Part shown: in pieces, positions 1-64,000 of the stretch
How positions within the stretch are numbered: the first letter of the stretch is position 1
Layout: each line of letters begins with the position of its first letter
Program-made: the position numbers and the translations under genes
Assembly (NCBI GenBank): GCA_033220425.1
Contig: CM065652.1
Coordinates: 4,216,001 to 4,280,000 of the forward strand
DNA length: 64,000 bases
Direction of reading: 5' to 3'
From: Lepraria neglecta
Lineage: Eukaryota; Ascomycota; Lecanoromycetes; Lecanorales; Stereocaulaceae
Notes under the pieces: model-generated
The model's input: the letters and a program-made list of their open reading frames with translations, nothing else
Told to the model about the DNA's origin: nothing
The model's database searches: none

Positions 1-682
1 TGTTGAAAAAATTAATTTCGTTGAACTCGGCTAAGGCGCTGGGGGTTGCCCGGTGTTGAGTTGAGTTGCGATCAAACCGCTTGTGGAAGCAGGGTCCAAA
101 AGCCACCACCTTCTCACCGCTGCCTCGGAACACCACCTATGGCTTTTGGACCCTTGATTGGTCATACCTTCACGGCACATTTTCAAACGCCTTTCGCGTA
201 TCCACCGCTTCAATGACCGTCAAGCTTGGCATGCGTGGACCCACTTTCTTTGTAAGAGTAGAACATACCTTATGCAGCCCGAGAGTGGTATTTCGGGAAG
301 GTGGTTTAAGCGGCCTTTTGGCTTGCGCAACCCATTAGAACAAGTCCCAGGCTATACCCCGAATGCTGCGTGAAATTTCGAAGTCAACGAGGCCACCCAA
401 GGAAGAGCCCAATAGTCAGAAATGTTGGTGATAGACGCTGGGTGACGATCAGGCGTCTCGATCAAGCCATGAGGCAACCGACTAGATGAGTTGGATAGGT
501 ACAGAATTTACACCCACAGAACCTCCGATCTTTGAGATGCATGGCCTGAAAAAGGGAGCCCTCGAAGCTGTCGTACAGTCGCTCCTGAGAGGAAGAAATT
601 TCTTGAGGCGACACCGAACCTCAAGACACCTCTTCCGTTGCGACTCAATTATAAACATCAAGCCCCACTGGCTCTTGTGCCT
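1..682. other. no gene recognised
   Basis: Short open frames occur on both strands but none shows a recognisable domain, a signal peptide or a consistent splice pattern. A gene running in from the left edge cannot be excluded. Confidence 0.4.
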
Positions 683-1315
683 TCACTTTGCATCCAGCGC
701 TTCAAATGTCCCGTTGACGTCCCCAACAGTTGTAAGGTTGGCCTGTGACCGAGCACCCGGGTACTTTGCCTCCAAAGTCCCATTGAAGTCCCGACTACTC
801 GTAATATTGATATCCAGACCATTCATCGGCCTTGCTGTATGCCAAAGCCACAGGTTCGCGGTACCCTCGGTGCCATATCCTCCAATACCGCTCCATATTA
901 CCTTCCCACCGTCAAAAGGTCCATAAGTCCCGATTTTGTCGACACACCGCCGTGCAAGGTGAAATGCGAATTCCGTTGCGATTTCTATGCATAACAGAAG
1001 AGGATGTATGGGTGTACTGTGCGCTCCCGCGTAGTCTGACGTAAGTACGCAGCCGGGTCTTTCGATCACGAGGGGGCATTTGAGGCTTCTGCGAAGGAAG
1101 AGTCCTCGGTGTGTGAGGAAGTATAGTGTTGGATCGGTTCTTAAAGGAGATCTCTAGTTGAATTCCATGACAGCTTCGCGGCGTCCGGAGTAGGAGAGAC
1201 GAGGCCGGGTTGTTGCCTCTTCGCATATGATTTCCTGGGCATTAGAGGCTGTTGAGAAGATGGCCAGGAGAATGAGGAGATACGTTAATGGGTGTGTTAA
1301 AGAACAATAGTGCAT
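683..1315 (-). pseudogene. secreted protein gene with one in-frame TAG
   Basis: From the ATG at 1315 the reading frame runs 211 codons to a TGA at 683, interrupted once by TAG at 1156-1154 (codon 54). The first ~26 residues form a clear signal peptide: a hydrophobic stretch TYLLILLAIF followed by an A-x-A-like STASNA cleavage site. After the stop the same frame continues for about 157 residues with cysteines and several N-glycosylation sequons (NIT, NGT, NLT). I do not recognise the family. No good intron removes the stop while keeping the frame; the nearest GT-AG pairs are 18 or 47 nt long and have poor donors. The stop could be a CAG or TGG codon changed by one transition, a sequencing error, or evidence that the downstream frame is not coding. 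The signal peptide supports a real gene; the break is seen directly, its cause is inference. Confidence 0.5.
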
Positions 1316-1438
1316 TGTTTCCTTTTGCTAGATCACGATTGTAAGATGTAAGACTTACAGATCAAGCGTCTCATCGAAAGGCATGAGATTTCAAGAGTTT
1401 CTGCCTTCAGCCGCCTCAATCGTCCAAGTATGCTTGTA

Positions 1439-6180
<4,742 letters not shown>

Positions 6181-20877: not shown

Positions 20878-21659
20878 ATAATGGATGGAGGACGTGATGA
20901 TGGATTGATTATCTAAGATGAAAATGGAAGAAGGTGGTATTTCCTAGTAACGGCTGACTAAACACATTTTCAAGAGTTTTGATTGATAATCTGCACTGGC
21001 TGAAGGGGGGCATGCCGGATTGGTGGCTGTTTGGTGCGCAAATAATGCATTGTATTTTCTTTTAAGCCATGCATGAAATGAATTGGATTGAATTCCTTCC
21101 AATCTACGCAATAAATTGAACAGGACGCAGCCAATGCATGAACGATCTAAGCGGGTGAGATAAAACGACACAGTTAAGCGCTGTAATGTCATTAGCAGTG
21201 GAATGAACAACTTGAACCTGCCCGTTTGTTTCTATTAACATTTATGCACCCCATGCAGAGGCATTTTGACGTATGAGCTACCTTGTCGGGGCTGTCGGTA
21301 AAGTCTTGAATTATGCATGTGTGATTTGTTCCAACATGTATCTTTTTCTGTAAGATCTTCTTCTAGATGCAAATGTCGCAATTCTATTATACGTGTACAA
21401 GTAAGTGCCCGTAATCTTCACAGAAGATTACTGTAAAAACGGCTATAACTCGCTTATTTTATACTCTATTTAGATTATTTAAGCGGAATTAGAAAGCCCT
21501 CCATTTATAGTATATATTATATATATAAAGTTAAGCTATAACCCTAATATATTAAAAGTTATTAAGGGTTAAATATTTGAGTGCTCCGGAGGCACTTCGG
21601 GGGTGACTGCAGGTGTAGCTTCAGGGAACTATACAGGCAAAAACATGTTTTTTGAGCTT
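20878..21659. other. AT-rich intergenic DNA
   Basis: Very AT-rich from about 21430 to 21590, with a long run of TATA-type dinucleotides. No gene seen. It borders the tandem repeat array. Confidence 0.55.
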
Positions 21660-27753: not shown

Positions 27754-29138
27754 TTAAGCAACTGCCGTGACCGTGACAGTTGTGTAGGATGTTTGTCTCG
27801 GTGGGCATGCGCCGCACGTGGGGCAAAGTGCAGTGGTTGGGAAACTAGAGACGGCCATTACACCGCCGGGCCCTGAGCTTACAGCTGTGCTGCTGCCTGG
27901 CGCAGAGCCGACTATCGCCCCAGAAGTGGAGGGGCAAGCTGCATCCGACGTAGATTTGTCCTCTATAACCGGCCAACCTCCATCATCGAAAGACAATTTG
28001 TTCCATCCGAAGTCGATGGGGAACGTATCACCGAGCGTACTAGAGGATGCTTTGTGGACCACTGACCGTTCGGTATTAGTATCGGTCAAGAAAAGATAGA
28101 CTGGGAAGTTAGCTTACGATAATGATAATACAGGATGAGGCTACACACCGAGCCATCGTAGTATACACCTTGTCCACCAGGGGCGTAGACGTTGCCATGG
28201 GAGCCGAGGATCTCCGTTCCGCCATTCTCGAGAAGACAACTCTTCTCTTCTTTGTCGACAAATGGTCCCGTTGGTGCGATTGAGCGACAAACCATGACTT
28301 TATACTCTTCTCCAACGGGCACGCCGCGGGTGTCGAGTCCACAACAAGTTCCGGAAGAAAGGAATAGAAAGAAGTGGGTTTTGCCATGGGCAGGCCAGGC
28401 AAATTGAAAACTTCCTTCTATAGGATCTGGCGGCAGAGGAGTTGGGTTTTTGCCCAGGCTATCAGGGCGTTGTGTAGTGTTCCGAACAAGATGCACTGGC
28501 TGTGCACCGGGCATTATGGTCAAGGGATCTTTCATTCGAATCTGATAAAGACCGTCAAAGTAAGAGCCAAAAGAAAGGTAGAACTCGGAGCCCTGGTCCA
28601 CGACTAGTAAGTTGGCGTCGACAAGATTGTAATCAATGCCAAGAAAGTTTGTCGGTGGATCTGTGTTGTGGACTGGAAGGGGCAGGATCCCGTGATCTGT
28701 CCATGTACCTGGCTCCATCGATGGGGAACTGGCCACATGAATCGCTGACGCATTGTTATTCCCAAATGCTGTGGCCTGATAGTAGAGGTAACACATGTCT
28801 TCAACTTTATGAACACCGGGTGCCTGTGAACATGTAAGTCAAAATCCATGGGAAATAGTCCGTTATACAATGTTAGGAAAGGCTATTACCCCCAATTGCG
28901 TCGAACTTGGCAGTGCTCCTCCAGGCTGCGTTGCCCACGGACCGCTGAGAGCTGTTGCAGTGGCGACGGTCACATTTGGATCTGAAGCAAAGCGAAAGTA
29001 TTTCCCATCAGGGCGTCGGACCACAGAAGGATCGTGACTTTGGTTGCAATTGCCCAAGCATGGCCCAGGGCTCGGCCATTGTGCGTTTACGGATACCGCA
29101 AAAAACAGAGCGCTGAGTGGCAAGAATAGCGCAAGCAT
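27754..29138 (-). CDS. secreted GH43-type endo-1,5-alpha-L-arabinanase-like glycosidase
   Basis: Exons 29138-28890, 28823-28118 and 28061-27754 give 420 residues. A signal peptide (MLALFLPLSALFFAVSVNA) is followed by the five-bladed propeller of GH43. The catalytic base Asp lies in QSHDPSVVRRPDGKY, a second Asp in GIDYNLVDANLL, and the acid Glu in PIEGSFQFAW. The WNKLSFDDGGWPVI block closes the domain. The C-terminal ~60 residues are Ser/Thr/Pro-rich with a few cysteines and end in a TVTVTA-type run. It should act outside the cell on pectic arabinan. The two introns are 66 and 56 nt; the second has a TACTAAT branch point. No damage is seen, although the neighbour at 25.6-27.4 kb and the transposon at 29.4 kb are decayed. 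Substrate preference within GH43 is inference. Confidence 0.9.
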
Positions 29139-29933: not shown

Positions 29934-31911
29934 CTGGCGGGGCTGGTGCTGCTAGTAGAGCTGATTTTGCTGGCGGTGCTGTTGCTGGCGGAGCTGCTGC
30001 TAGTACTGGCGGAGCTGCTGGAACTGGTACTGGCGGAGCTGGTGCTGCTGGCGGAGCTAGTGCTGCTGGTGGAGCTGATACTACTGGCGGTACTGATGCT
30101 GGACTGGACAGATCGTGATCGCTAGTACTTGGTATCGTAGGTGGATAGCAGAAATCAATAGACCTCCCTGGCGTCGATTTACGGCCTCTTCTATTGAGCT
30201 CTCTGACAGTCTTTAGCTACCTGGTATTCGCCTTCTTTGCACGTTTTATATCCTCTCTTTCTTACTATAGACGCTGTTTTTCTAAATCGGCTTACTTACG
30301 CTCCGCGAGGAGTTCATCGTTTATAAGAATTGTACTAGGAAAGTAAGCTTGCTTTCTATTAGTTTTGTTCTGTTTCCGCTCATTAAGCTCTTTAAGATAA
30401 TTAGCAGTATAGCAATAAATTTATATATTGGATCGATAATAGGTTGCTGCTTTAGCAATCTTCTGGGTTCTTATATCGAATACCTTGAATATACGGAGCA
30501 GCCTTTCTATAGCAGCATTATCGTAAGGTATATCCGGCTATAGAATGTCGCTGATACTGTGAGTGACGCTATTGATCTAGATTTCTGGTGGTATAGTAGG
30601 GCAGATAGAATAAGCGATTTGGAGGTTACCCTGGATCACTGGGTTTGAAGCATCCTCCTGTGTATTGGCTGTATAGTTAGGAAGCTTCTGGAGCACTTGC
30701 ATTGGCTCAAAAGGAGCTAGACCTGATACCTCCTAGGCCTTTATGATGGTTAAAGTGGTAGCGACTTGCCGACGAGCAAGTATATAGAACTCTAAGAACT
30801 CTGATTTATCGATAGAGTAACTAGCTCCTAGTCTACTTACTCGTTAAATATTCGATTTATAGACATTAGCGAGTGGTACAAAGAAGCCAACATCTAGCGG
30901 CTGTAGAAGATATATACTGTGCGGTGGCAAGCAGAGTACGATAATCCTATTGGCTACAGCGAATTCGATAGCCTTAGTAGTAATATATGATGCATGGCCG
31001 TCAAAGATAAGTATTCGATATTTTTGGCCTAAATCGTTCCTGTATATCTACTTTTGGAAGCACTGTAGCCACTCGAAGCCAATATTATTATCGGTCCATC
31101 CATTTATACTGGTATGTACAGACCATAATGGCTCCATCTTTTCAAGCTAATCAACCCATAAATGTATGACTACTTTGCCTTTAAAGATAATCCAGGGAGG
31201 AAGGACCCGGCCATCCATTGAGATACAATCGATAGTAGTCACCCATTCACGATTGCCAGGTTGAGTCATCGTAGCTTCTTTGTTATGCTTTGAAATAATG
31301 ACTCGCATTTTGGCTATAACTCCCATCATGAAGCCTTTCTCATCCATATTCCATATATCTTGATCCTCAACGTCATACATGCTCCTAGCCTTTTAATATA
31401 TATCGAACCAGTGCTTAATAACTACTGGATTCTCTACCTGACGCTGTACTTTATCGAGAGGAGGAACAAATTTGGTTTTGAATTAAGGGTGTCGAGCAAG
31501 GAATTTGGCTGACCAGTATACTCCGATAGGCTCTATGTCGTTCTTAGCTTCTAGTAGCTCTTTAGCTATACTAACAAGCTGTTAGATCGTTAACGGCCAG
31601 CCCCAGGCCTCCAGTCGCTCAATATAGCTGCAAAGTGCTTTTTCTTCTCCTTCTATTAAACGCTGTCGAAATTTAACTACCTCAGCGTAAGGTATTTTAC
31701 CGTTAACTCAATCGTTCAAGGTGCTTCTAGGTAGCCCATACTACCTTACAACCTTGCTCAGCGAGTCGTTGTTGGTTGGTGATCGAAAATATTAACAAGC
31801 AAGTTGGTATCGGAGTTCTTTGGGAAGCTCTTCTTGCTCGTCAGCTTCGTCTTGAGGGGGGAAGCTTTGCTAGGCCCCGTAACAGGTATCTAGGGGAGTT
31901 CTTTGAGGCAT
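29770..31911 (-). pseudogene. Fot1/pogo-like transposase remnant
   Basis: Read from the ATG at 31911, in order: an N-terminal HTH region with GLPRSTLND and EKALCSYIERLEAWGWPL; then YWSAKFLARHP; the catalytic core with IWNMDEKGFMMG and TTIDCISMDGRVLPPWIIFKGK; then FDGHASYITTKAIEFA (second Asp region) and LCLPPHSIYLLQPLDVG. The tail is rich in Ala-Pro and ends RRGRYIRKPSKLLD before a TGA at 29772-29770. Numerous TAG/TAA codons interrupt it, for example before KARSMYDVEDQD and after LARHP. The enzyme would cut and paste the element at TA sites. It cannot be translated as it stands. The Ala-Pro tail is encoded by a 12 bp minisatellite and looks expanded compared with relatives. Confidence 0.88.
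29856..29944. repeat. 12 bp minisatellite in the transposase tail
   Basis: About seven head-to-tail copies of GGAGCTGGTGCT with few changes; diverged copies continue to about 30110. On the transposase strand it encodes Ala-Pro repeats. Confidence 0.85.
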
Positions 31912-31997
31912 TTGGGAGTACTGGGAGGGTGGTTGGGTAGTTAGGTGGTTTATGTGATAGATAAACAGTTATTGTTGACAAATTCAGAAGATTGCGA

Positions 31998-32057
31998 TTC
32001 CTAATCGGGTTTAGCGTGCCGAGCCATGGGTATTGCCGAGCCATAGGTCAATACTTC
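31998..32057 (-). repeat. right terminal inverted repeat (60 bp) of the pogo-type element
   Basis: Exact inverted copy of 29409-29468; a TA target duplication follows. Confidence 0.95.
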
Positions 32058-36985: not shown

Positions 36986-39900
36986 ATGGCATACGCTCAA
37001 CAACCACGCTATGGCGGCCCTCAAAGACCCAACTACGAGCACCAGCAAGTCTCATATGCTTCTTCTGCCCAGCCTTACGCCGCCGAGTACGATTATGCCG
37101 ATGGGAATCCAGGCGGTCACTACAATGATGATCCTAGAGGTGGACCTCCACAGCAGTATCTTGATCCTTATAGCCAACAAGGAGGAGAGTATGGGAATAA
37201 CCAGGGAGCATGGCAAGCTGGCATTGCACAACACGCAAATGGCGGGCAATATGGAGGCAGGGGCCAGCAAAGAGGTGGAAGGCAGCCTGCACAACAGCAG
37301 TATTCCAGACCAGTAAAGCCAGGGGGCTACACGCACAGCGACCCTCGCAGTCGGGGACCTCTGCAGTCTAAGTCTAGATTCCCGCCAAGGGGTCAATATC
37401 AGCAACAAGATCAAGGGTATCAGTCCAGTCGCCAGCCTGAGGCACCACGCCACCAGCAGCAGTATCCTCCAGAGCAAGAACCGTGGCCGGCAAATGGTGG
37501 CTATGAATATGACGACCCATCCTATGCGCCTCAGGACAATTGGACACCGACGCAGCAACATTTCCCTGGAGCTTCGGATAACGGAGCAAATGGCTATCAC
37601 GCTCCCCAACAGGATGCCGGGTATCAGCAACAGGAATTCTCAGGCGGATATGATAGGGGGATCTCCCCAGACAAGCGCGGCAATGTCCCAAATGCTCTGA
37701 CTAGCAGACATGAGGCTTCAGCACCTGAATCTGCTAAGGGTCAGTCACAGGGCAGCTCTACGAGATCTAAGAGTTCTCAGCGCTCAAAAGCTGGTGAGTG
37801 ACCCAAATCGTAACAACGAGCGAAACTTGGCGCTTGGGAATTTCAGCTGACAGCTGTATCTAGCTCCGAAACGGATCGTCGAAACCCCAATCTCGCCCGA
37901 CACGGTTGCCTGGGACAATCCATTCCCCACATTTCCTATGAGACCCAAGAAAGGAGCGCATTCGAGCTCTAAAAGTGTCGACGGCTCTTCGGGTGGATCA
38001 AGCATGAAAGATGGGGCCGCTCAAGAGAAGATTCATGACAGCAGGCCACAGACTGCGAGCAGCAAAGGCAGTAGCTACGCCATTCCGCAAAATAGGGATT
38101 TGGAAGAGCCAAATGGATATTCCAGCAATCAGCATGATAGATATTCCGGTAGCCAGTTACGATGGCGTAAGGGCACCGAGCAAAACCGCGACGTAACACA
38201 AGCAAGGCCGAGTACCAGCGGGAATGGCCATAGTGGAGGCCGTATTGATCAGCTCAAGCCACCACCAGTGAACGGTCGACACTCAGAAGACAATAGGACA
38301 AGGCCGTCATTTCGCAATGATTCGGTGATTGACTCGGGCTACGGGCGAAGCAGAACGATGCCGACAGCGATCTCAGAAGGCGTTGCGAAGTATGGCTATC
38401 AGCCAAGTCAACCGGATCAATCGGCTTGGCAGGAACCTGGTCCAGTCGCTGGCTATTACGGCCCCGAAGACAGAGAGTATTTGCCAGCGAGTCCTGTGGA
38501 TGGTCCTCAACAAAGGCCGCATGGCCAAACAAGAGCGCAATCTGATGAACACAGACCCTACGGCCATGCAGCGATTCCGACCCCACCAGCTCAGAAGACA
38601 AACCCCCCTCAGCCACACGCTCCACATGGCAGCCTTGGGGATTTCTATGACGACTACTACAACGCGGGGCAACAGGATCACCAGCCTTATTTGCAAGATC
38701 AGGGAAATAAGCACCGCTCTCCTGTTGATGAGGATATGCCAAACTTTGATTTTGTAGCTGACCCAGGCGCTATCCATAGACGTGGCATGACGATTGACGA
38801 CCACCTAAAGCCGCAACAGAAATCGCAAGAATACCCACGAATGCCAACGCCACCTCGACAGGACGAGCGCAGAGATATGAGGAACGATTCGAACTACAAA
38901 AGCCAATTTCCACCCCGAAGTAAATCGCAGCCGAACCTGAAAGACAGACGATCGCCGAGAGAAGAAAACTTTGATTTCGGTGTACCTGGAACTCCCGGTC
39001 GACCACCTGCGACTGCTCCCGCTGCAGGCGGATACGAGGGTGAAAACAATCCTGCGATGGGGTATCCAAACGATAGACCGCAGAGAAGGGATCGACCACC
39101 AATGGGCCGTGACCCTAAGGGCCCCATGCCAGTCGCAAGATATGGCCCCGAAAACCGAAACGGACCCAACTATCCACCTCCCAGGACAGGGCTGCCTCCC
39201 ATACCCCACCAGGGCAACGCTCCAACCGATCGATACCGCTCACCGCCGCTGCAAGACGGACGCTCACGAAGGGCCCCTATGAGACCACCAGGCGGCGGAC
39301 CTTCTCCAGTCGATCGAAACATGGCAAACGGTCCGCCTCCAATGGGTTATCAGAATGGTGCACCACCTGATCGATTTCGTTCACCGCCTATACAAGATGG
39401 TCGCTCTCGCGGAGGTCAGATGAGACCACCCGATGGAAGACCATCTCCTACCAATCGAACAGGACCCGCTTCACCTCCATTTCGTACACCTTCGAACCCC
39501 GATGCATTACCATCTCACCCTGCCCCATTCCGTCCAGGTTTAATAGAAGACTCTCCAGTCAATCAAGCCACAAAACCGCCTCCAGTCAGGCAGTACAACG
39601 CAGCTCCTTCACCGATGCAAGAGTCTAATCCAACACGAAAAGGCTCTTCACACTCCACTGATAACAAACGAGAGTCTGTTCCGGTCACTCATCAGGAGCT
39701 CGAACAGCTCCGACAAGCTACGGCAAGGAAACCCGATGACATGGCAACTCAACTTACTTTGGCCAAGAAATTGGTCGAAGCAGCTTCTGTTCTAGTTGAC
39801 GAGCGCGCTGATCCAAGAACCAAAAGCAAGAGCCGCGAGAAGTACAACGCGGAAGCCTACAAGATTGTGAAGAAGCTCTCGGGAAATGGTTACACAGAAG

Positions 39901-40918
39901 CCAATTTCTATCTTGCAGATGCTTACAGTCGCGGATCGTTGGGCTTGGAGGCAGATACACGCGAAGCCTTCAAACTCTACCAAACAGCAGCCAAAGTAGG
40001 ACACGCTCAAGCTGCTTACAGAGTGGCGGTATGCTGCGAGATCGGACAAGAAGAGGGTGGAGGGACGAGTCGAGATGCGGTGAAAGCTATGCAATGGTAT
40101 AAACGGGCTGCGACGCTGGGAGATACTCCTGCTATGTACAAAATGGGCATCATCTCACTGAAAGGACTTTTGGGTCAGCCCAGGAACCCTCAAGAAGCCT
40201 TGGTCTGGTTGAAGAAAGCTGCTGACCGAGCAGATCAGGAAAACCCTCATGCTCTTCACGAACTTGTGAGTTTCTCCCTTGGGATGACCAAGAAGAAGAT
40301 AGCACTGACGAACTTTAGGCTCTGCTCCACGAGAAGCCGACTGGCAATGAGGGTGTGCAAAAGGACGAAGCGTATTCAAAGCAGTTATACATTCAAGCAG
40401 CGAAGCTAGGCTACAAGTTCTCCCAATTCCGACTTGGATGCGCATACGAGTACGGCCTGCTTGGATGTCCTGTGGATCCCCGACAGAGTATCGCTTGGTA
40501 CAGTAAAGCCGCGGTACAAGGAGAGCACCAAAGCGAGCTGGCCCTGAGCGGCTGGTATCTCACAGGATCCGAGGGCGTGCTCCAGCAAAGTGACACCGAA
40601 GCATACCTCTGGGCACGGAAAGCTGCTCAGGCCGGTCTGGCCAAGGCTGAATATGCTATGGGGTACTTTACGGAAGTTGGTATTGGGGCTCCTGCCAATC
40701 TCGACGATGCCAAGCGGTGGTATTGGCGTGCTGCTTGTCAGTCTTATCCCCTTAACATATGCTGAGCTTCGCTGACCCGAGCGTTCGTAGCACAAAATTT
40801 CCAGAAAGCGCGAGAAAAGCTTGAAGACCTGCGAAAAGGCGGAGGGACTAAGCCAAGGATGAGGGTTTCGCGCTCCAACATGAAAAAGCAGTCAGATGGT
40901 GAATGTCTGGTCATGTAA
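36986..40918 (+). CDS. Chs4/Skt5-like chitin synthase activator with Sel1 repeats
   Basis: Activates and anchors class IV (Chs3-type) chitin synthase at sites of wall growth. Exons 36986-37793, 37864-40265, 40319-40736 and 40791-40918 give 1251 residues. The first ~800 residues are disordered and rich in Gln, Gly, Tyr, Pro and Arg, with many YGGP/QQ-type runs and FRSPPxQDGRSR repeats. From about residue 860 come Sel1-like repeats (for example YKIVKKLSGNGYTEANFYLADAY, YQTAAKVGHAQAAYRVAVC, YKRAATLGDTPAMYKMG, YIQAAKLGYKFSQFRLGCAYEYG, ARKAAQAGLAKAEYAMGYF). The C-terminus CLVM is a CaaX box, predicting farnesylation as in yeast Skt5. Introns are 53-70 nt. The N-terminal region is long for the family, but frame and splice sites are clean. 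Confidence 0.92.
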
Positions 40919-52326: not shown

Positions 52327-53430
52327 CAAAAGAAGACTGACCAGTGAGACGTTGCAAGGGAAGGTGCGGCCCTGGCAGAAACCGTAGGCGCACTACGTCA
52401 GCTAAGGCTTAGCCGTTGATCTCCCACATACCTTACTCCCGAGAACGCTACTTGTTGAACAAAAGTAGACTGTCCAATTAAGAAGGGTCCCACTCTCCAA
52501 TGAAGGTCAATCTTCATGATTACGCTAACCCTCATCTAGGCGAGGTCCTCTCCACTTTGCACATACATGCTCCATGATCAGCCGGCTTACTATAACCCTA
52601 GACGCCAATGCAAACAAAAGTAGACTGGCCAATCGTGGGACTATTGGGAGCCGCAATGGCTTCTAGAAAGTAGAATTTGATCTGCACGAAAGCATCAGCA
52701 TAACTAAATGCCGCTGCGCCTTCTGAGCTTCAAGGTGGACAAAAGGAGACCGCCCAATGATACAAGGGTTGGAGAAGCCAGCCTACGCGTGCCATCCCAA
52801 CTGTGGACTACCGCCATTGGTGCACCCTAGTTGCTAAGGTGTACAAAAAGATACTAGCCAACGGCAGAGAAACAATGTCGGCAGCAGAAACACGAAACCA
52901 CCTAGTAATAGAAGACATGACCTCAGGATTGCCTTGCAAGTCTAGCTAACCCTGGGTCATCACTACCATACGCTAGCTTGAGCTACTGCAACCATTGATG
53001 AATTCCGTGCCCATAAATGGCCATGCCTCGATTCATATAGTGGGGCTGGCCCAATCTCAGAGGATGCATCCTTCATACCTGCAGCTATGGGTCGTGGTTG
53101 CCTTCCTTGCGCGGCGGACGTTGTAACACCTGGTCTGTACAGTGTATAACACTATATAATGTCAGTCAGATCGCCATAGTGCAGGAAAAATTCCAGACCT
53201 TAAACCAGTCCACAGCCAGGAGCATTCTCACGACTCTGAAGAAATTCAGTCCCGTCCCTTCTCATTCTCCTTCCCATTTCAGCAGCGAAGTTCAATATCT
53301 TCTCAGCAACTCAACTCCAATGGCTCCCACGAGACACGTTCCGAAGCCCAGAAGGTGACGAATCCCTCCGAGTTCAGACGTGTCCATTGAATTGCGGAAG
53401 CTTCGACGACAAAAGGAGACTGACAGCTTG
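52327..53430 (+). repeat. degenerate interspersed repeat, five or six copies
   Basis: A shared ~19 bp core, best written CAAAAGTAGACTGGCCAAT, occurs at 52327, 52460, 52615, 52740 and 52844, with a weaker copy at 53410. Spacing is 104-155 bp. The segments between the cores also share short words such as CTAACCCT. It fills the stretch between the Clr5 gene and the gene hit by the retroelement. Confidence 0.65.
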
Positions 53431-53520
53431 TTGTAGGAACCATCCCTCTCGTGACACTCAGAATCAAAGCCAGACGAACCTGACAACTCAGTCGTCCACC
53501 CCTGGCCTGACAACCCAAAG

Positions 53521-53651
53521 TTAGTGTTCTCACTCCTGAAGCTATACACACCGGCACAAGTGGATATGTAAATAGATGCTTGGGCGGTCTAACGCCAGGG
53601 CTAGCAGGCCTAGAAAGGCTACAACAGGTGCCCCAGCGCTAGAAAACTCCC
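53521..53651 (-). repeat. B2 terminal repeat of the YR element (131 bp)
   Basis: Outer copy of the B repeat; host sequence starts at 53520. Confidence 0.9.
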
Positions 53652-53723
53652 ATGCCTAGGCGGCATAGACCTGGAGTGTAGATAGGCTATATATAGGCTA
53701 TGTATAAGGTGCGGGTAGGCGGG

Positions 53724-53903
53724 AAAGAACTGCTATAGCTCTGAAAGAGATGAACTCGACTGAAGAGCCAACTGCTAGTAGGATGCTTATACAAATAGTG
53801 CTCTCAGGAAGCACGGATCTCTCGCTGTAGCCCATGGTTATAGCGTATAGCTGAAACCGCATCTGATCATAAGATACACTAACCCACAGTCCTACTGTAG
53901 CGA
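53724..53903 (-). repeat. A2 repeat of the YR element (180 bp)
   Basis: Internal copy of the A repeat, next to B1. Confidence 0.9.
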
Positions 53904-54034
53904 TTAGTGTTCTCACTCCTGAAGCTATATATACCGGCATAAGTGGATATATAAATAGATGCTTGGGCGGTCTAACACCAGGGCTAGCAGGCCTAGAAAG
54001 GCTATAACAGGTGCCCCAGCGCTAGAAAACTCCC
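53904..54034 (-). repeat. B1 repeat of the YR element (131 bp)
   Basis: Matches B2 (53521-53651) with about six differences, all transitions; directly abuts A2. Confidence 0.9.
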
Positions 54035-57000
54035 AAACAACACCCAAACAACGCCCCCGTAGAGGGTTTCCAAGGAAGGCCTCGCAGGGTAGCTCCTAGC
54101 GAGTATCGCTAGTACTAGCGCTGCTGGTGCCGATATAATACTATAAGTATTCGCTCGGGATAAGTGACTATATATAGACGATAGGAGTCCGACTTCTATC
54201 GCCCTAGTAGCTAGATTTCTTTATTACTAAGGCCTGCCTCTTATATAGAGGTAGCGGCCCCCCTGCGGAAGGAGTGTCCTGAATAATAACCTTCTACCCT
54301 GAGTAATGTGAGTACTTGACGAAGGTAACTCGTAGTGATCTCCCTTATGAATACAGAGCCTCCTAGCTAGAAGAGGGGACTATTTAGTACGGTCTTCCAC
54401 TTAAATAAATAGCGTAACGCCTTAACTGCGTATACTCTATCGCCGGAAGCTACGATAGTAAGGGTAATACCCTGCCTGAAAGGGTCCGTTTTTAATACTA
54501 GGAGGGTAAGCTCTAGATAGTTCTTATATAGCCTTACTGAGCGACGAGTCAGGAACCACTGGCTGAATTCGTGATTATTACAATCTTTTGCGGTATAGGT
54601 AAACTCCCCTACACGGAGGAATACGGCGAATACAAGGTAAAAGGCCGTATATAATATTAAACTAGTCTCGTTATACTAGTTAAAATAAGGGAGGATCTAT
54701 AGCAGTAGATCCTTAGTAATAGGACGTCTTTCTTTTATCCCGGCCTCGCCCTATAGGCGTCGTATACCCGCTATTATACATTCTAATTATGGGTTATAAA
54801 ATACTATAAGGCCCCTATAGCCCATGTCTATATACGTTAATCTAATACCTGTCAAGTAGGCCTTAACTATCTTTACCTTAACCCGTTTCGTACTAAGATC
54901 TACTATCCAGCTAGCTAATAAGTTTACTATCACTAGGAAGGGAGGTATACTCCCTCTAAGTATACAATAGGTAATATATAACTGCGTTAGTATGGTATAC
55001 GTTTTTCGGGTTTTTGTTACTAACCCCTACTATAGGAGTCGAGCGGCTTCTTGTGGCAGTACGGTCTAACTATACCACGATTATAGTAGGTCCCGCCCTG
55101 ACTCAGCGGGGATATAGCTAGGTGACCTAGCTGAGGGTATCTATCAGCGATTTTTCGATATCGGAATCGCGAGAGGTTATTAGCCAGTTAGTTAGCTCCT
55201 GTTGGGATCCATTCCGGAACCAAATAGATGTTATATCTAGCCGTGAGTATAGCTATATCCCTTAGTAGGGCCATAGCTAGTCCACAGATCGAGGATTTAT
55301 ATAGCCTATAGATACAGGTATTATTATCGTAATAAAGGGTTAATTTTGATCCCCGGAGTTATTCTAACTATAGCTGTATCGCATAAAGAATAGCCTTCAT
55401 TTCTTTGAATTATATATCTTTACGACGATAGCGTATAGTAACCGGTATACTAAAGACGTCCTAGACCGAGTATAAATAGGCTGGGTGATTAAGAATGTAG
55501 CCCCCTATACTAAGCCTCCTAGAGGCATCAGTCTATATATACTACGATGGTCGACTAACGACGTGACGTAGTAGTTTAAGGCCATTCCAGTCCTTCAGGA
55601 AGGTATACTACTATAGTAGATTAGCCCTTATAGCTACGGTGATATATAGGATAGCTATTAGCCTCCGAATTACATTAAAAAGTCGCCTCAAGAAGGCCCT
55701 TCCTGGAACTATAATTTTGGTAGTAAATAATAGAAAACCGACTGCTGACTCAAGTTCCGAATATAGGATTATAGGCCTTTTAAGGAGGCCTTGCACTATA
55801 TTTCTTACCCTATCTAGCTTATCCGGAGGGAGTCGTGCCTGTATAAAGATACTATCGAATTCAATTCCTATAAAGTCGGCTTTTATACCTCTCGCATCCT
55901 TCGAATAGTTAACTAACAGGCCTAATTCGTTATATACTTGATCGAATTGATAGCTGTATACGATAGCGTCGGCTTATAGTGCCAGAATGGCGAAGAAATC
56001 GTCCAAGTAGTATAATACTATAGCCTATAGTAATACTGCGGTTATAATCTAGTTAACCGCCTTCGTAAACAGGTTAAAGAGGAACGGTACTATATATAAA
56101 CTAAAGGGTAGATAGCGTTCTTTCCAGTAGAAACCATTGTAGTAGAAACCCAGTAGCTACTGGTCTGAAGTAGCTACTGGAATATGACGAAAGGCGTCTT
56201 TCAGGTCTCGCTTAACGAATTAAGCCCCTGGACCTTGTTACAGCAGCGCATCCACGGCGTCATTATATATTACATACTCTAAGGCACCCCAATCGTGAGG
56301 TATACTATCATTAACTGAGCTGCTGTATAGAAACGAGAGGTCATGAATGCGTCTCCAGCCCCTATCGTGCTTCGGGACCAAGCCTAGCGGCGAACAGACG
56401 TACCGGGGCTCCGTCTGATGGTCTACTAGAGTTAACCGGTTGTGCTGAAGCTGTTTTTGAAGGTCCGCAGTTAATATATCTAGTGCTGCACGTACTGATT
56501 GGTGGTTTTAACTGAGGTGTTGGATGTCTATACCTCTATACCCGATTTTTGCCCCCTTCTGAAGAATAGCCGCTAGGGTCTTGGCGAAGGTTTGATCGGG
56601 GTGATTCTTTAACCATTTACACCAACTATCAACGCGCAACGGGCCCTGATAGGGTAGATCTAGATCGGATAGATCGACGAGTGAGTATGGAAAACCTTCT
56701 GCTACGTACAGTAGCGATATAGGCACCTACGGGTACTCTAGGAGTCATTCCGACTTGGAAATTCGATTTGCTAGTAGTATTAAGTTGGCGTTGTTCGAGG
56801 CCGAGTTAGCCCTTGAGCACGTATTCGCTGGGTGATTCTGCTAATATATAGAACAGATATGAAGATACCTGCAGCGGTCGCGTGGACAGTAGCCGCTATT
56901 GAACGATCTACACGTGAATAGGCCTGAAGAGGAGGATTTTGAGGCACTACCACCTATGTATGACCTAGTATCGCCCTGTACGGATATCCTTCGGACCAAG

Positions 57001-57913
57001 AGGTCTGAGCAGCGTCTATCGTCGATCGACCAGGCTACTAGATCATCCTGGCTACTCAGGATATATATAGTGACGAACGCGTGATGGTATGCGCGGATAG
57101 AGTCAAATTTATAGTGTATATACAGCTCCGCAAGGCGAAGGCGGTAGTCCGAAAGGGCTACCTGTAACTGTATACTTACTATAGGGTGCGTATAGTGATA
57201 AACGGCCTAGCCATATACCTCGAAATACTGCAGGAGGTATACCAACCCGTTGGTCTCCTAGATAGTATCGCTATCTGTACGATTGGTATAGTTATAGGCC
57301 AGCTTTGTGAGGTATTCCGTTTTAAACGTTCCAAAGAAGATTTGCTTAAAATACTTGATATTAATAGCACGATAGCGCTTATAAAGACTAAGAAAGGGTT
57401 TCTTACCTTCGGTATGCCTGAAAGAGACTATTAGGCCATCCCCCTCCTCCGAGTCTGTACTAGAAATAGATAAGTGGCGATAACGATGACGGCAACGGCG
57501 ACTATGTGACTTATAGACTCGATAGCGATCCTGGTGATCGCGCTGGTCCTTTAGCGCCGCTAGGCGGTGTTCTAACTCGCGAATTTAATCACGGTGACTA
57601 GGAGGAGGTGTTTCGTCGATAAGGCTTGGGCTGATAGTTCCCGAAGAGGTAGCAGATACCTGTAATTCGGGGGGGGGTATAGCATCCCTCCGAGTGGCTG
57701 TTTTAGCTTGTTTGCGGTTCTTGGAGGAGGTCTTGGGGGCCGTCTTGGAGGCTTTCTTGGAGGCTTTCTTAGAGGTAGCTGATTTACGTGTAGCGACGGC
57801 TATAACTAGGTGATGCTGAGGTGTTTATACTTAGAAAGAGGGGGGAAGAATATAAGTATAGATGGGATAAAAGGATAGATGGACTAATATATATATAGGC
57901 TTAATTACTGTGA
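54035..57913 (-). pseudogene. reverse transcriptase and tyrosine recombinase of the YR element, degenerate
   Basis: On the minus strand, in order: a poorly readable first region (57900-56750) that would hold a gag-like frame. Then comes the RT domain with KWLKNHPDQTFAKTL and IGYRGIDIQH (near 56600), CSPLGLVPKHDRGWRRIHDL (near 56380) and the polymerase motif YYLDDFFAIL (55985-56014). The RNase H region cannot be read. Last is a tyrosine recombinase with LTRRSVRLYKNYL (near 54540), GHSFRRGAATS (His-x-x-Arg, 54245-54280) and SDSYRLYI holding the nucleophile Tyr (54172-54200). Many TAG/TAA codons interrupt all parts, typically where Gln or Trp would stand (for example LLGR-stop-KSDS for LLGRWKSDS). 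It is non-functional as read. Confidence 0.85.
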
Positions 57914-58093
57914 AAAGAACTGCTATGGCTCTGAAAGAGATAAACTCGACTGAAGAGCTAACTGCTGGTGGGATGCTTATACAAATAGTGCTCTCAGGAA
58001 GCACGGATCTCTCGCTATGGCCCATGGTCATGGCGCATGGCTGAAACCGCATCTGATCATGAGACATACTAACCCACAGTCCCACTGTAGCGA
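57914..58093 (-). repeat. A1 terminal repeat of the YR element (180 bp)
   Basis: It is the same length as A2 and differs at about 15 positions by hand count, all transitions. Confidence 0.9.
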
Positions 58094-58553
58094 AGAGACT
58101 CCAGACCAGCAGAAGGGTTCTGGAGACCCCACCTTCATCGCAGGCACAACTGCCCACACGCAATGCGGTGCCGCAGAAACCTTCGGTCCTGAACCTCAGC
58201 GACCGTCGGCAGACGAACTATCCACATACAAATCCAACAGAGAGCACCATGACCTTCTAGGCGTGGGTTCGCAAACCTTCAACACAGGCGACATACAGTA
58301 TAAGCCTCGCACGGCACGCATGGAGGAAACATCTGTGTGCCCGTATCATCGCCTCATTCTCCAAGAGCGTCTCACGAACCCTTGCTCTGGCCAAGGATTG
58401 GGTCCGATGGATCGGTATCTCGCCGAGGGCCCCTCAGAACGATACGCCATTCTCCATCGACCAGATGCTGGAACTATGTCCACATATAAGGGTTGTCGGT
58501 GCATTGAAATGATGGAAAGCAGTATCGATACCAATGACCATGCCCAGAAGTGA

Positions 58554-59604
58554 CAGACAAAAGGGGTTTTGATCAAAGGAGCAGTATTGACGCTCAAGCC
58601 TAGCGACATCTTGAGGTCTCCAGTGCCACTTGAAGATGGCTGGGGAATTGACGACAATGGATGTGAATCTTGTTTTAACTGGTTGCAATTGGTCCACACT
58701 TGTTTCATTTCAACCCCCTACCTTCTTGAGCGGCGAAAGGGTCATATTTCTTAAGCATGTCAAAGACTAGTCTTTTGAGCGCCATCCATAGAGTTTGCAA
58801 TAGGCATTCATTGAATTCATATTCGCTGTTTACCAAACCTTGACTTGAAGTAACCCCGCTGGAGGTTAGCACCGTCTGAGGATCATACACCCCTTGCACA
58901 TTGACAACTGTGCCTGAATCTCGGCGTCGTACGAACCGAACACATCATGAGGACGCAACATAGTTCTGATACATGGAATGATGTCCAGGTTTTTAGACCG
59001 CATCAAAGGAACCAATCTGCAAGAACACGCATCTCAGTCGCGTGCGATGGCGAACAATAGCGCAAGATAAAGATACATCCGCTCCGGGGGTAGTAGCAAT
59101 GACGCTATACAGCACTCAGGATGAACACTTATCGCTGAAAGGTCCGTCGGTGGAGGAGACTCGGAGACTATTCATGTCGATTCCCAGGATCCATTTATTT
59201 GTCGGCAGAGGCTGGGAAGCAGACCGGGACAGTGTTGGGAGTAGTCTTTAGAATGTCGAATTCGTACGGAGGGTGGCCAGGTACAACTGGCGTGCCTCGC
59301 CGGGCCAGATTTCACCATTGATCTTGACTTGCCTGGGAAGTTTGGGTATCTCTCGCTTCTAGATCTGCAGGGTCACGTTTCCAAAGTCTTGGCATGAGAA
59401 GGTGACAAAAATCTGATCCGGCATTTGCCAAGCCTTTTTTTTTCTGCTGCGGCTAGCGCTCCGCCCCAAATGGTTACTAACGAATTGTAGAGTCCCGCTT
59501 CCAATGGACTTCCAATATACTGTATTACAGGCGGACCTCGACAGTGGCCCAGTGCCTAAATTTGTATGATTGTTTCTCAAACAATCGCCCGAGGCTTGGC
59601 TTTA
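58554..59604. other. no gene recognised
   Basis: Minus-strand frames with coding-like composition occur (58899-58705, and roughly 59300-59040 with stops), possibly remnants of one decayed gene. No family was recognised. Confidence 0.4.
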
Positions 59605-60690
59605 GAAGGGTTCATCCCTCAACCGGCAGCCCTACAGGGCTGAATTTCAAAATTTGTATGCATACAACCGATTTTATTGCAGATTCAGACTTATTTGACT
59701 CCAAAAAGCTCTCTATCTATTGACCAGCCTTACGAGGCTTTCTGACACGTAGCCATCTTCCCATTGGTTGATTCTGAAGCTCCCCGGAGCTCTCCTGCCT
59801 TCCGCTCTGCTGCCCCCAACGACCCTGCTGTAGCTCCTGAGTAGTCACCCTTACTGGCAATATCACTATTCTTCTGCGACGTCTCGGCGGAGGAGTCACC
59901 GGGCGGAGCGAGCTCTCTGGCGGACGTCTTGGCGGAGGAGAAATGAGGCGGTGGAGGCTTAATGACGGTGAAAGCTCAGTAGCTGGGGCTTGGGCACGTC
60001 TTCTTGGTGTAGCTGGACGCTGTGGGGCGAAGATATTTGGTCCCAGTGCTCGTAGTCTTTTCTCCTCCTTATTCCACTCCTTTAGCGCTTTCTCAGCGTT
60101 CTTCTCAGCAAATTTCTCTGCAGCGTCCTTCTTCCGCTGGTCGATAACGTCTTGATTCATAACCCTTGCGTTGCCCCAGTTGCCTTTGGCACGATTAGCG
60201 TTACGCTCCTTCCTCTTATTTAATTCCAAAAGCTCATTGGTTGTAGCACTCTGAATAGTACGTTCAGCCATCGTAAAACAAGCAGCTTTACTTACTTCCC
60301 AGGCCTGAAGACGTAGGATCCAATCGCATAGAGCTGTCTCTTCTTCGGGGGAGAGCTTTTGCCGACTCTGCTGCCGTACCGTTGCTGAAACAGCGCCATC
60401 TATTCGACCCTTTAGAGTGCTCTTAGGGACGCCGTGCTTGCGAGCAATTTCAACCATTAGGATAGTTTTATCTTCTTTCCAGCGCTTATTAGCAAGATTA
60501 AGACGCTCATCCAGCGACAGCTCGAGTAGGTCGGAGGGGTCGATAGGGGGTGAGGGTCTCGTAGGCATTTGGGACGCTTATGGGAGTCGATTAATCGAAA
60601 TTTTGGTTGAAAAGAAGACCATTAAGCAGATAAAATTTAGATGTATGAAATTTAGCCCTATAGGGCTGGCGGTTGAGGGGTGAACCCTTC
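59605..60690 (-). mobile_element. short pogo-like element with TA target duplication
   Basis: A 1086 bp element is bounded by ~44 bp inverted repeats (59605-59648 and 60647-60690; 40 of 44 positions match by hand). It is flanked by TA at 59603-59604 and 60691-60692. The ends start GAAGGGTTCA, sharing GAAG with the larger element at 29.4 kb but otherwise unrelated. It carries one intact ORF derived from a transposase without its catalytic core. Its right end lies ~100 bp upstream of the NUDIX start. Confidence 0.88.
59717..60568 (-). CDS. DDE-less Fot1/pogo-type transposase derivative, intact ORF
   Basis: A single uninterrupted frame of 283 residues runs from ATG 60568 to 59717. Residues ~15-60 form a psq-type HTH (LSLDERLNLANKRW, EIARKHGVPKSTLKGRI). 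Residues ~70-95 match the start of the Tc5-type DNA-binding domain (KLSPEEETALCDWILRLQAW). The frame then jumps directly to the transposase tail (TTNELLELNKRKERNANRAKGNWGNARVM, a long charged helix, then Pro/Arg-rich sequence with PPPRRPP repeats). The whole DDE catalytic domain, usually ~300 residues between these parts, is missing. The protein could bind the element's ends but not cut DNA. That the frame has no stop codon, unlike the other elements here, suggests recent arrival or selection. Function is inference. Confidence 0.75.
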   Translation of the reverse strand: MPTRPSPPIDPSDLLELSLDERLNLANKRWKEDKTILMVEIARKHGVPKSTLKGRIDGAVSATVRQQSRQKLSPEEETALCDWILRLQAWEVSKAACFTMAERTIQSATTNELLELNKRKERNANRAKGNWGNARVMNQDVIDQRKKDAAEKFAEKNAEKALKEWNKEEKRLRALGPNIFAPQRPATPRRRAQAPATELSPSLSLHRLISPPPRRPPESSLRPVTPPPRRRRRIVILPVRVTTQELQQGRWGQQSGRQESSGELQNQPMGRWLRVRKPRKAGQ

Positions 60691-60792
60691 TACAGGTTGC
60701 CGCCTTCAGATGATATAAATGTTATGTATCGAGATATCTCCTTTCTAAAGACCATTAAGACTACTCGAAACTCCATACCTTTAGCACGTAAA

Positions 60793-61374
60793 ATGGCAGG
60801 AAAAGCATATCCTCCCTTGAGATTCACCGCCCATCCTTCAACCTCGCCATTTACCGTCTCTCAACAAAAATACTTGTCCCAACATCCTGATGAAAGATTC
60901 CAATATATAGCGACTGCGGCGCTTGTCTTTGACATAAAAAAGGGCATCGATCCCCGTATTCTCCTTCTGCAACGTTCAGCCCAGGATAGCATGCCAAATA
61001 GATGGGAAGTCCCTGGAGGTGGGTGCGATGACGAAGACGAGAGCATCCTGCACGGCTTGGCGCGCGAATTGTGGGAAGAAGCAGGACTCAAGGCAACCTA
61101 TATCGAGCCGTCATTGGGAGAGCCGCACTTTTTTACTAGCAGGTCGGGGAAGAGAATTTGCAAATTTGTGTTCGTGGTGCAAGTGGAACAGGGTGCTCAA
61201 GGGCATTTGAACGTGAAATTGGATCCGGAAGAGCATCGGCGATTTGTGTGGGCGAGCCAGGATGAGGTCAAGGCGAAGAAGGTAGGGGATGTGGAACTAG
61301 AGTTTACAACTCAGGACTTGGAGAACTCTTTGCTTCAGTCCTTTGGCTACATTGAGGAGAGGTCAGTACAGTAA
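60793..61374 (+). CDS. NUDIX hydrolase
   Basis: An intronless frame; the start at ATG 60793 gives 193 residues (MAGKAYPPLRF). An in-frame ATG at 60724 would add 23. The Nudix box is complete: GGGCDDEDESILHGLARELW continuing EEAGL, matching G-x5-E-x7-REUxEExGU. Upstream, FQYIATAALVF and ILLLQRSAQDSMPNRWEVPGG form the usual strand and approach. The C-terminal half (EPHFFTSRSGKRICKFVFVV, EEHRRFVWASQDEV) is typical of small fungal NUDIX proteins. The family cleaves nucleoside-diphosphate-linked compounds; the substrate is unknown. A pogo-like element ends just upstream, so it may sit in the promoter. The gene converges with the HET-domain gene (113 bp between stops). Confidence 0.9.
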   Translation: MAGKAYPPLRFTAHPSTSPFTVSQQKYLSQHPDERFQYIATAALVFDIKKGIDPRILLLQRSAQDSMPNRWEVPGGGCDDEDESILHGLARELWEEAGLKATYIEPSLGEPHFFTSRSGKRICKFVFVVQVEQGAQGHLNVKLDPEEHRRFVWASQDEVKAKKVGDVELEFTTQDLENSLLQSFGYIEERSVQ

Positions 61375-61487: not shown

Positions 61488-63500
61488 TCAGACAATTTTA
61501 AAGACTTCTTCAGCTAGCTCTTGACGATTCGTCATTTCCATGGCCTCTCCATTCATCAATCCATGCACGTAACACTCGCCAACGAGTAGATATCGATCTC
61601 CCAAAGGGCGCAGACAGAAAGGCAGCTTGCCACCGAAGAGAACACACACAACGTCACCCGGCTGTGTGACCTTTGGGCCTAGAACATAGTAGCCTTTCTC
61701 AGTCTTCGCAAAGATGCGATTCTTTGATGCCCCATTAGCTGAACGACTCCACTGCTCTTCTATGTATTTGGTCTCTGCCTCCTCCGCTAATTGACGCAGA
61801 TCCGGTGCCACAACATCTGACTGACCCAACGCCTTTACCAGGTACATAGCTTCTTGTTCAAGCCATCTGACTTTTGGAATACCATGGTACGGCATTTTCT
61901 CGCGGCTGGCGATCTGCACGCAGCCGTTGCTCAGCGTCTGCATACAGGCAAATACGTAACAGTCCTCGCCGTCGAGATACTGGCCACTGAGGTTGAACTG
62001 ATCTCTCTCGCAGACATCGCGCCAAATGTATTCAATGGTTGATTCATTCTCCCCGGAAGATTCCTTCAAGTGAAATTCCTTCGTTGCTAAAGGCCGGGAG
62101 CAGATTTTAATTTTATCTATTTGTAAGCCATGAATTCGAAGTAGTCGATCGTTCATATCAAATGCCAGCTTCGACGATGATTTACCGTGAGCACGATGTG
62201 GGTTGACTGGCTCTGAGAGGATGAAACTTTGATAAGTTCTCCAGTCTGGGACCCAGGATGGCAACCAAATTTTGTCGACAATTTGACCTTCAACATGAGT
62301 CTGCGCAGGTGCCTCGCTGGGCGACAAGTTTATATGCTGCACAGCCGCAAGTGCAATCAAAGCAGAGCCGTCATTGTTCCTCTCATCGGTCTCGACCTTT
62401 AGCGCCAATTTGGCCAAGTCGATATAAACCTCTGCCAATGTCTTCTTGTAGTCGGCTTTCAATGTTTCCGCAAGCTCTTTGAAAGTCCAATGCTTCGAGT
62501 AGTGGCCGAGCCAGGCGTAGACCCGGTCTCGATGATCGGTGAATTTGAGACCCCGTGCTCTGTGCAGCTCGTATATGAAGCTCACACGATTTGCGTGGTG
62601 GCTGCTCATGTCTGGGTGGACAAATCGCTCGAAGACATACTTGATCTCCGAAGTCCGGATATTGAATCGGCTACGGAGAAGATGGTAGTCCGTTAGGATC
62701 TCGCAAACTCTGTGTAGGACCGTCCAGTCGATGTCCTCATCACCCCACAACAAGGTCGCTGGAGCTTTTGTTCCGATCTCCTGTACGATCCAGCCTCGTG
62801 TAAACTATGGAGAGCCGAGGATGTTCAGTAAGGCGTTTCATTTTCTTCGGGTGGTGGTTTTCCTACTTACCCATGGGCGCCCTGTCAAGTGGTCCAAAGC
62901 ATTCCATCTATCTCTTGATTGTTCCTCCAGATCCTTTATAGCCGCGGTGGAGAATTTTGCGTGTTTTATTTCGTCTTGGAATATATGGTCGAGACTATGG
63001 ACCAGCTCGAAAGCAGGTTTCGCCAGGCCAGTATCGTCTGGACCGAGCCACACCAAAATATGGCTCGCATGCTTGTAGATTCGGTTCATGAATTGCACTT
63101 GCTGGCTGCGCTCAGCCACGTCGGATTGATTGATACAAATCTGGTCAACCCAGAGCCGACGTTGTTTGTCTGGGAAACGGAGTCGCAGTAGAGTTTCTTT
63201 GAGGCTAGCAGTTAGGTCCACCGGCCACTCATTATTTCCATGCCGGATGGAGATATTGTCCACCTGGTTGGATGTACCCCAAACGTAAGAGAGCGTCTCG
63301 TAGCTCCCAGCCGAGTCGATGTCAGCGAGTTCAAGTCGTCCTTTTAAGGGGTCGGCTAATTCTCCAGGCTCAAGTATCAGCATGCGAATGGATTGGCCAT
63401 CCGGTAGCGCTGCGTATGGCTCTCCTTTCGCGCTGTTTGCTTTGCTTGACTCGACAAAGTCACCGACCGAGGATTCCAGTGATGGAGCTAGATCACCCAT
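61488..63500 (-). CDS. heterokaryon-incompatibility (HET) domain protein
   Basis: Exons 63500-62871 and 62804-61488 give 648 residues; the 66 nt intron keeps frame. All three HET signatures (PF06985) are present: YETLSYVWG (about residue 68), LWVDQICINQSD (about 120), and TRGWIVQEIG just after the intron. HET proteins trigger programmed cell death when incompatible strains fuse; individual partners are usually unknown. The C-terminal ~350 residues (for example KIWLPSWVPDWRTYQSF, LLRIHGLQIDKI, GDVVCVLFGGKLPFCLRP, YLLVGECYVHGLMNGEAM) match the usual tail of this family. No ankyrin, WD or TPR repeats follow. The gene appears intact. Confidence 0.94.
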
Positions 63501-64000
63501 TGTTACTACGTTCAAACTCTAACAAAGAACCAAAATAGGGTGCAGGTGAAAAACACTGGAGAGTCGTATCTAAAGAACCTGCACTCCAAAGCCATTCGAC
63601 ATTTTCATAGTGAGTGATGTCGCCTGCTGTTGTCATTAGTCCTCAATTCTCTCAGCCTGATTCCACAAGCTTCCATTGCGGCTACCAACACCAATTGAGA
63701 AAAGCAACGTAGCCCGTTATTTCTTGCTAAGGTTCTCCTGGCTAGACCAATCCCCGAATCTCGCCAATCTATTCTTAGAAGGCTCTACCCCTCGAGTTCA
63801 CCGAGCTGAAAATTGCGCCTCACCCGTGAAGGCCATTGGTGGTCCTAATTCTTATGTAATCTTCGAAGTCCAGTGGGAGGTGTTACCGTAGACTTCAGAA
63901 CCATTGGCGGGAACGCTAAGGCACTTTTGGGGTACCCCACCAAACACCAAATTTTGGTGGCAGAAGAGGTATCTAGTGAGGGTAGACCGTAGATGCAATT
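63501..64000. other. upstream flank of the HET gene, no gene recognised
   Basis: Should contain the HET promoter. A plus-strand frame at 63676-63891 has no recognisable features. Confidence 0.5.

Follow-up and report, generated by a model that had tools for sequence, protein, structure and literature searches.

Structure of the element

The DNA analysed here, called the window, is a 64,000-nucleotide stretch of the Lepraria neglecta genome (GenBank assembly GCA_033220425.1, contig CM065652.1, positions 4,216,001 to 4,280,000 of the forward strand). Its minus strand carries an element with split direct repeats that is very probably a Ngaro-like tyrosine recombinase (YR) retrotransposon, integrated by its own YR. 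Element coordinates 1-4573 correspond to window positions 58093 down to 53521. The overall order on the minus strand is A1-gag-reverse transcriptase (RT)-RNase H-YR-B1A2-S-B2, with the internal repeats downstream of YR (Table 1).

Self-comparison of positions 53000-58700 reveals two families of direct repeats, A (180 bp, 92% identity between copies) and B (132 bp, 95% identity), and no pair of inverted repeats of 20 or more bases. A first reading of the letters without database searches (the sequence-only reading) had proposed the arrangement A1-interior-B1-A2-B2 with abutting B1 and A2 and a 180-bp A repeat. This holds, and both repeat pairs align. The B repeat, however, is 132 bp long rather than 131, and a 71-bp spacer, absent from the earlier description, intervenes between A2 and B2. 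The motifs YYLDDFF, GHSFRRG and SDSYRLY can all be read in the window copy, as had been claimed.

The window copy is dead through mutation of the repeat-induced point mutation (RIP) type. Its composite RIP index is +0.76, whereas the flanks have -0.78 and -0.61; TA/AT is 1.47 and (CA+TG)/(AC+GT) 0.71. All 15 differences between A1 and A2, and 5 of the 6 between B1 and B2, are CA/TA or TG/TA changes, and the YR frame contains 12 stops (9 TAG, 3 TAA). Since the frames of the window copy are broken, a less-mutated sister copy, L013, was analysed instead, unaltered. Within L013, the A repeats show 1 difference over 180 positions and the B repeats 0 over 132. Outside the element, a single 2-kb step of the window (30001-32000, low in GC) also has a positive composite RIP index (+0.13).

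Table 1. Parts of the element, with positions in the window
Feature	Position	Strand	Remarks	Basis
A1, left terminal repeat	57914..58093	-	180 bp; element 5' end TCGCTACAG	repeat comparison, genome copies
gag frame	56748..57824	-	element 270-1346; stop-broken in window copy	frames, profiles
In-frame stop closing gag	56745..56747	-	TGA in window copy	sequence, alignments
pol frame	55023..56744	-	element 1350-3071; RT with YYLDDFF, then RNase H; broken in window copy	frames and profiles in L013
YR frame	54118..55140	-	element 2954-3976; overlaps pol end in a different frame	frames and profiles
Putative intron	55131..57406	-	element 688-2963; GTAAGA...branch-like site...CAG; missing in the relative L049	L049 comparison
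B1	53904..54035	-	132 bp; abuts A2; taken as circle-junction copy	repeat comparison
A2	53724..53903	-	180 bp	repeat comparison
Spacer S	53653..53723	-	71 bp; A2-B2 interval	repeat comparison
B2, right terminal repeat	53521..53652	-	132 bp; element 3' end ACACTAA	repeat comparison, genome copies

Copies in the genome

The searches covered an assembly of 11 contigs, 42.0 Mb in total. Three DNA queries were followed through the best 41 of 197, 40 of 199 and 40 of 52 candidates, while a YR protein query gave 70 matched stretches, in some cases several per single copy. Among 40 copies fetched by their 3' end, 22 span the identical 4573 bp with the same two ends and differing flanks, one spans 17-4573 and 17 are shorter. 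Constant ends over a shared span in different surroundings indicate that the repeat layout is not due to chance. Several of the short copies break at sequences common to different loci, and several have a lone A1 end about 6-40 kb farther out on the same strand. They look like long copies split by nested insertions. The family amounts to about 50 long copies.

Comparison of L013 with the 22 other long copies over positions 181-4058 gives 8758 transitions, 69 transversions and 51 gap positions. The changes are those of CpA-type RIP: 4829 C to T before A and 2209 G to A after T, with 728 and 695 at CpG. RIP-type mutation is seen in all compared long copies except L013. Because the divergence between copies is nearly all of this type, the family appears to have spread recently.

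Coding capacity

In L013, the frames 270-1346, 1350-2558 and 2562-3071 share one reading frame, whereas 2954-3976 lies in another. The second of them matches Pfam RVT_1 above the cut-off (E=2.6e-12). Against sequences in PDB, RT shows a weak resemblance to Ty3 and retroviral enzymes (best E=0.0038) and YR shows nothing credible; no relatives of RT were found in viral_contigs and none of YR in genome_contigs. The first frame, gag, has no credible Pfam match in L013. It encodes a basic N-terminus and a Cys/His cluster close to its end, and the pieces of the window copy give weak zinc-finger matches in gag (zf-CCCH, E=0.0039, at the Cys/His cluster) together with a weak hit on an uncharacterised family.

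Some results weigh against the assignment of the remaining domains. The RNase H families matched by the third frame (E=0.0096 to 0.037) all fall below the Pfam cut-off, as does the Phage_integrase match of the fourth (E=1.9e-5; 24.9 bits, the cut-off being 27.1). In this frame the HxxR and Tyr motifs of a YR are present, as identified by eye. Moreover, the profile search that the sequence-only reading had suggested fails with the window copy itself, whose nine pieces give no RT, YR or integrase match.

Classification

The element had been labelled as of Ngaro or PAT type. Its membership of the YR retrotransposons with split direct repeats is borne out by layout, RT and YR domains and the lack of target-site duplications (TSDs; see below), and between the two names Ngaro is favoured and PAT disfavoured. 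PAT and DIRS elements are defined by a methyltransferase (PMC4157794). None is found among the Pfam matches of the L013 frames, and a six-frame search of the genome for Dam methyltransferase (PF05869) returned 0 matches, the E. coli control being positive. Under the scheme of that article, this absence makes the element Ngaro-like rather than PAT- or DIRS1-like. The assignment goes by layout and domain content, and structural features of YR elements are homoplasious (PMC4157794), which counts against it.

It is improbable that the element is of PAT or DIRS1 type, or derives from a PAT element that has lost its methyltransferase. Split direct repeats are common to PAT and Ngaro, and a PAT-derived lineage lacking the methyltransferase is reported from Caenorhabditis briggsae (PMC4157794), but neither genome nor sister frames contain a Dam match, inverted repeats are missing, and the internal repeats lie downstream of YR. 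A DIRS1-like structure, which needs inverted terminal repeats and an internal complementary region, was rejected on the lack of inverted pairs. The structure of a Crypton, a YR element without RT and with short terminal direct repeats, does not fit either, RT being present in L013.

That the element is a long terminal repeat (LTR) retrotransposon or a long interspersed nuclear element (LINE) with coincidental repeats can practically be dismissed: the 17 of 40 fetched copies that are below full length do appear 5'-truncated with a constant 3' end, but copies queried by that end are a biased sample, the truncation points with sequences common to several loci and the distant lone A1 ends point to nested insertions, no TSD is seen at empty sites or in flank pairs, and neither a Gypsy/Copia integrase core nor a LINE endonuclease is among the Pfam matches of the L013 frames. 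LINE-like 5' truncation was therefore rejected as an artefact of the 3'-end query.

Integration and target preference

The joined flanks of three elements can be compared with unoccupied copies of the host repeats into which they are inserted. All four comparisons (L031/L030, L021/L037, L045/L034 and L045/L025) are gapless over 90 junction bases, the L021/L037 pair being just 73% alike. These three elements were inserted without duplication or deletion. In 52 flank pairs a TSD of 3, 5, 6, 7 or 8 bp is found in none, and one of 4 bp in a single pair.

The left flank favours ACTA at positions -5 to -2, letters also found in the B end ACACTAA. A match to three or more of the four occurs in 20 of 55 left flanks, against 2.6 expected (p=3e-13) and 4 at a control offset; the motif was picked after inspection of the flanks. 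Position -1 leans weakly towards a pyrimidine (40/55) and +1 more strongly (54/70), while +8, +9 and +10 lean towards A/T (55, 56 and 52 of 70), all single-position biases being uncorrected for the number of positions.

A junction-like target, exact ends and conservative insertion together fit a YR that crosses the B|A junction of a circle into the target. According to this proposal, the RNA would be copied into a circle with a B|A junction for which the internal B1A2 serves as template, and the recombinase would then cross that junction into the target. The circle is taken from a literature model (PMC6681497).

Proposed readthrough between gag and pol

The stop that ends gag (element 1347-1349) is kept in 28 of 28 alignments, as TAA in 23 and as TGA in 5, the window copy included. 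TAA is the RIP product of TGA. The pol frame continues gag past the stop in the same frame, and L013 has no ATG near the pol start. A UGA followed by C is a leaky stop. From the sequence alone, we lean towards the view that RT is produced when ribosomes read through the UGA at the end of gag.

A putative intron and the expression of YR

A relative of the element, L049 (C1:5857900-5861400), has element 162-687 joined to 2964-4190 and ends at a single B. It lacks exactly element 688-2963, a segment of 2276 bases that begins with GTAAGA and ends with CTCAG, and which in L013 contains a branch-like GCTGAC shortly upstream of the acceptor. The join carries the gag frame into the YR frame after 139 codons from its opening, or 132 from an ATG at 291 (ATG in 6 of 23 alignments, ATA in 17). 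When made in L013, the same 687/2964 join is open for 477 codons. By itself the YR frame has a single ATG, at 3269, too late for the entire enzyme.

In L013 there are two GTAAG[AT] donors and seven YAG acceptors with a branch-like site, forming 10 donor-acceptor pairs. One of the ten brings gag into the YR frame, and it is the deletion seen in L049, among 6.9 million possible deletions. Given this exact donor-to-acceptor deletion, the gag-YR frame join and the lack of an early YR ATG, YR is probably expressed from a spliced RNA. We consider it quite likely that the spliceosome excises an intron of 2276 nucleotides from some of the RNA, which would fuse the start of gag to the YR frame and so yield the recombinase. 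The best reading of L049 is that it descends from such a spliced RNA. Its YR has a ratio of nonsynonymous to synonymous changes (dN/dS) of 0.34 against L013 (simple count, one stop codon skipped), and exon 2 shows 69 differences between the two over 1011 bases, 64 of them transitions and 5 transversions.

Several points tell against the intron. L049 is the only intron-less copy found. It lacks most of A1 and the whole of A2-S-B2, and its left flank is unlike the usual target. By fungal standards, an intron of 2.3 kb is long. All 25 alignments at the donor retain GTAAGA and all 31 at the acceptor retain AG, yet such agreement is to be expected among copies from a single recent burst. A junction-pattern search allowing up to three mismatches gave 97 matches, one of them exact, against 38 for the reversed control; the 96 inexact ones are read as unspliced acceptors, reverse readings or background.

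Alternatively, YR might be made by -1 frameshifting or other recoding at the end of pol, L049 being a chance internal deletion. The pol and YR frames overlap by 118 bases (element 2954-3071) with YR in the -1 frame, as frameshifting would have it, and a 2-base microhomology is present at the L049 junction, as a deletion might leave. Yet a search of L013 over 2948-3080 for one slippery-heptamer pattern found none, and in L049 the break coincides exactly with a strong donor and an acceptor supported by a branch site, the sole right-frame pair of the ten. This alternative is unlikely, and splicing is preferred.

The origin of L049 is not simple. Its element part starts inside A1, at element 162, beside an acceptor-like stretch, CTCTTTCAG. 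The left end may be an RNA start, the border of a second intron or a deletion. The idea that L049 was copied as a chimera of a duplicated host exon and the element was rejected, since the 603 bases upstream match only themselves.

These proposals can be assembled into one scheme, for which we see even chances. Gag would come from the full RNA, Gag-RT through the leaky UGA, and the recombinase, with the basic N-terminus of Gag, from spliced RNA only. Spliced RNA might occasionally be reverse transcribed and inserted, giving RT-less Gag-YR units such as L049, a possible route to a Crypton-like DNA element. A recombinase from a spliced message would parallel the envelope protein of retroviruses, although the element itself is not a retrovirus. 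If true, splicing would account for the translation of a YR frame that has no early start codon, and would give YR retrotransposons an expression switch known from retroviruses. Among the papers listed in a literature search, none reports a spliced YR recombinase in its title or the start of its abstract; a word search for splicing had no occurrence in PMC8547959, PMC3266345, PMC9210276 and PMC2685390.

Solo A-S-B units

A search with the first 26 bases of A gives 192 places in the genome (both strands, up to three mismatches; control 0). The B|A junction occurs 51 times, one occurrence being an A1 with a B-like left flank, which leaves 50, and the border of A1 with the interior occurs 45 times. 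By subtraction, about 97 places are solo A-S-B units of 383 bp; that the figure is not a direct count weakens it. Complete A-S-B units of 372-384 bp make up 30 of the 33 solos fetched from about 100 mismatch-free A-start places, a sample biased to well-kept units; the other three are cut. A further candidate, C5:1359995, is in fact an A1. The reciprocal form, A-open reading frames (ORFs)-B with a single B, is represented by two copies, at C9 and C5.

Solo units probably arise, like solo LTRs, by recombination between A1 and A2. RIP needs a minimum length, which units of 383 bp would not reach. It is possible, though doubtful, that they insert as such: the recombinase would resolve the two B|A junctions of the circle, yielding one A-S-B minicircle and one A-ORFs-B circle, both of which integrate. 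The two predicted products do exist, and to the eye most of the solos that were fetched show no RIP, L072 and L074 being exceptions. Furthermore, A/T at +8 is found in 10 of 19 solo right flanks against 37 of 40 long copies (Fisher p=0.0009), and in 18 of 30 in a larger solo set. This difference was chosen post hoc, however, and that at +9 is not significant (p=0.17), while the left-flank preference is alike (A at -2 in 25 of 33 solos and 14 of 22 long copies). The two products should also be about equal in number; about 97 against two favours A1 x A2 recombination over recombinase-made circles, though not decisively. Recombination between 5' and 3' repeats is, in addition, the published reading in Cafeteria (PMC8547959).

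L072 and L074 have near-identical left flanks (24 of 25 bases) and different right flanks, perhaps due to an exchange between elements or to insertion beside a repeat border.

Relation to known elements

Ngaro elements (order DIRS), ascomycete copies of them and solo AB units are already known. The sequence-only reading had called such elements much less common in ascomycetes than LTR elements, and their rarity fits the literature, in which one remnant and one complete family are described (PMC3783388, PMC4502367). Muszewska et al. (2013) recorded one ascomycete Ngaro remnant among 177 fungal genomes (PMC3783388), that of Neosartorya fischeri, which likewise has RT, RNase H and YR but is single, truncated and without terminal repeats. 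Ngaro matches are also tabulated in three of four Sporothrix genomes.

A complete Ngaro-superfamily family, RYN, has been described in Zymoseptoria tritici, reportedly by Grandaubert et al. in 2015. The superfamily is called otherwise absent from Ascomycota there, and a table row of 1 and 23 is taken here as families and copies (PMC4502367). Set against RYN as described, the Lepraria family is about twice as rich in long copies and has solos besides.

The Ngaro elements of Cafeteria burkhardae (PMC8547959) and of fungi (PMC3783388) share with the present one the A1-[ORFs]-B1A2B2 layout and the Gag/RT-RNase H/YR content, with no methyltransferase. As here, isolated AB repeats are scattered in the Cafeteria genome, where they were read as possible recombination remnants (PMC8547959). 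In contrast to these elements, gag and pol here form one frame with a single stop between them, YR would be reached by splicing from gag, 71 bp separate A2 from B2, and the host is an ascomycete with heavily RIPped copies.

Cryptons are fungal YR mobile elements without RT (PMC3212892), and L049 is likewise a Gag-YR unit without RT; unlike them, it derives by sequence from the Lepraria retrotransposon. GCR1_C is found in CryptonF proteins, and direct repeats of 4 or 6 bp terminate the elements (PMC3212892).

YR retrotransposons are poorly understood, and complete ascomycete ones are rare in the literature found. With its many copies, exact ends, empty sites, preferred target, solos and intron-less relative, the Lepraria family makes recombinase integration and expression directly testable.

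Other features of the window

A gene with a HET (heterokaryon incompatibility) domain lies on the minus strand at 62838-63518 (E=4e-29). The genome has at least 150 HET matches (best 150 of 196 candidates), some of which are pieces of one gene. These matches and the CpA-type RIP are both marks of a filamentous ascomycete. Four ORFs of the window gave no match among PDB sequences. An open frame of 852 amino acids with Sel1 repeats (E=1e-24) occupies 37851-40409 on the plus strand, and exons of a cytochrome P450, a GH43 and a NUDIX gene are found at 7027-7863, 28086-28838 and 60664-61374, respectively. Finally, 120 bp at 21418-21537 are 88% identical to the flank of element copy L038, which points to another dispersed repeat.

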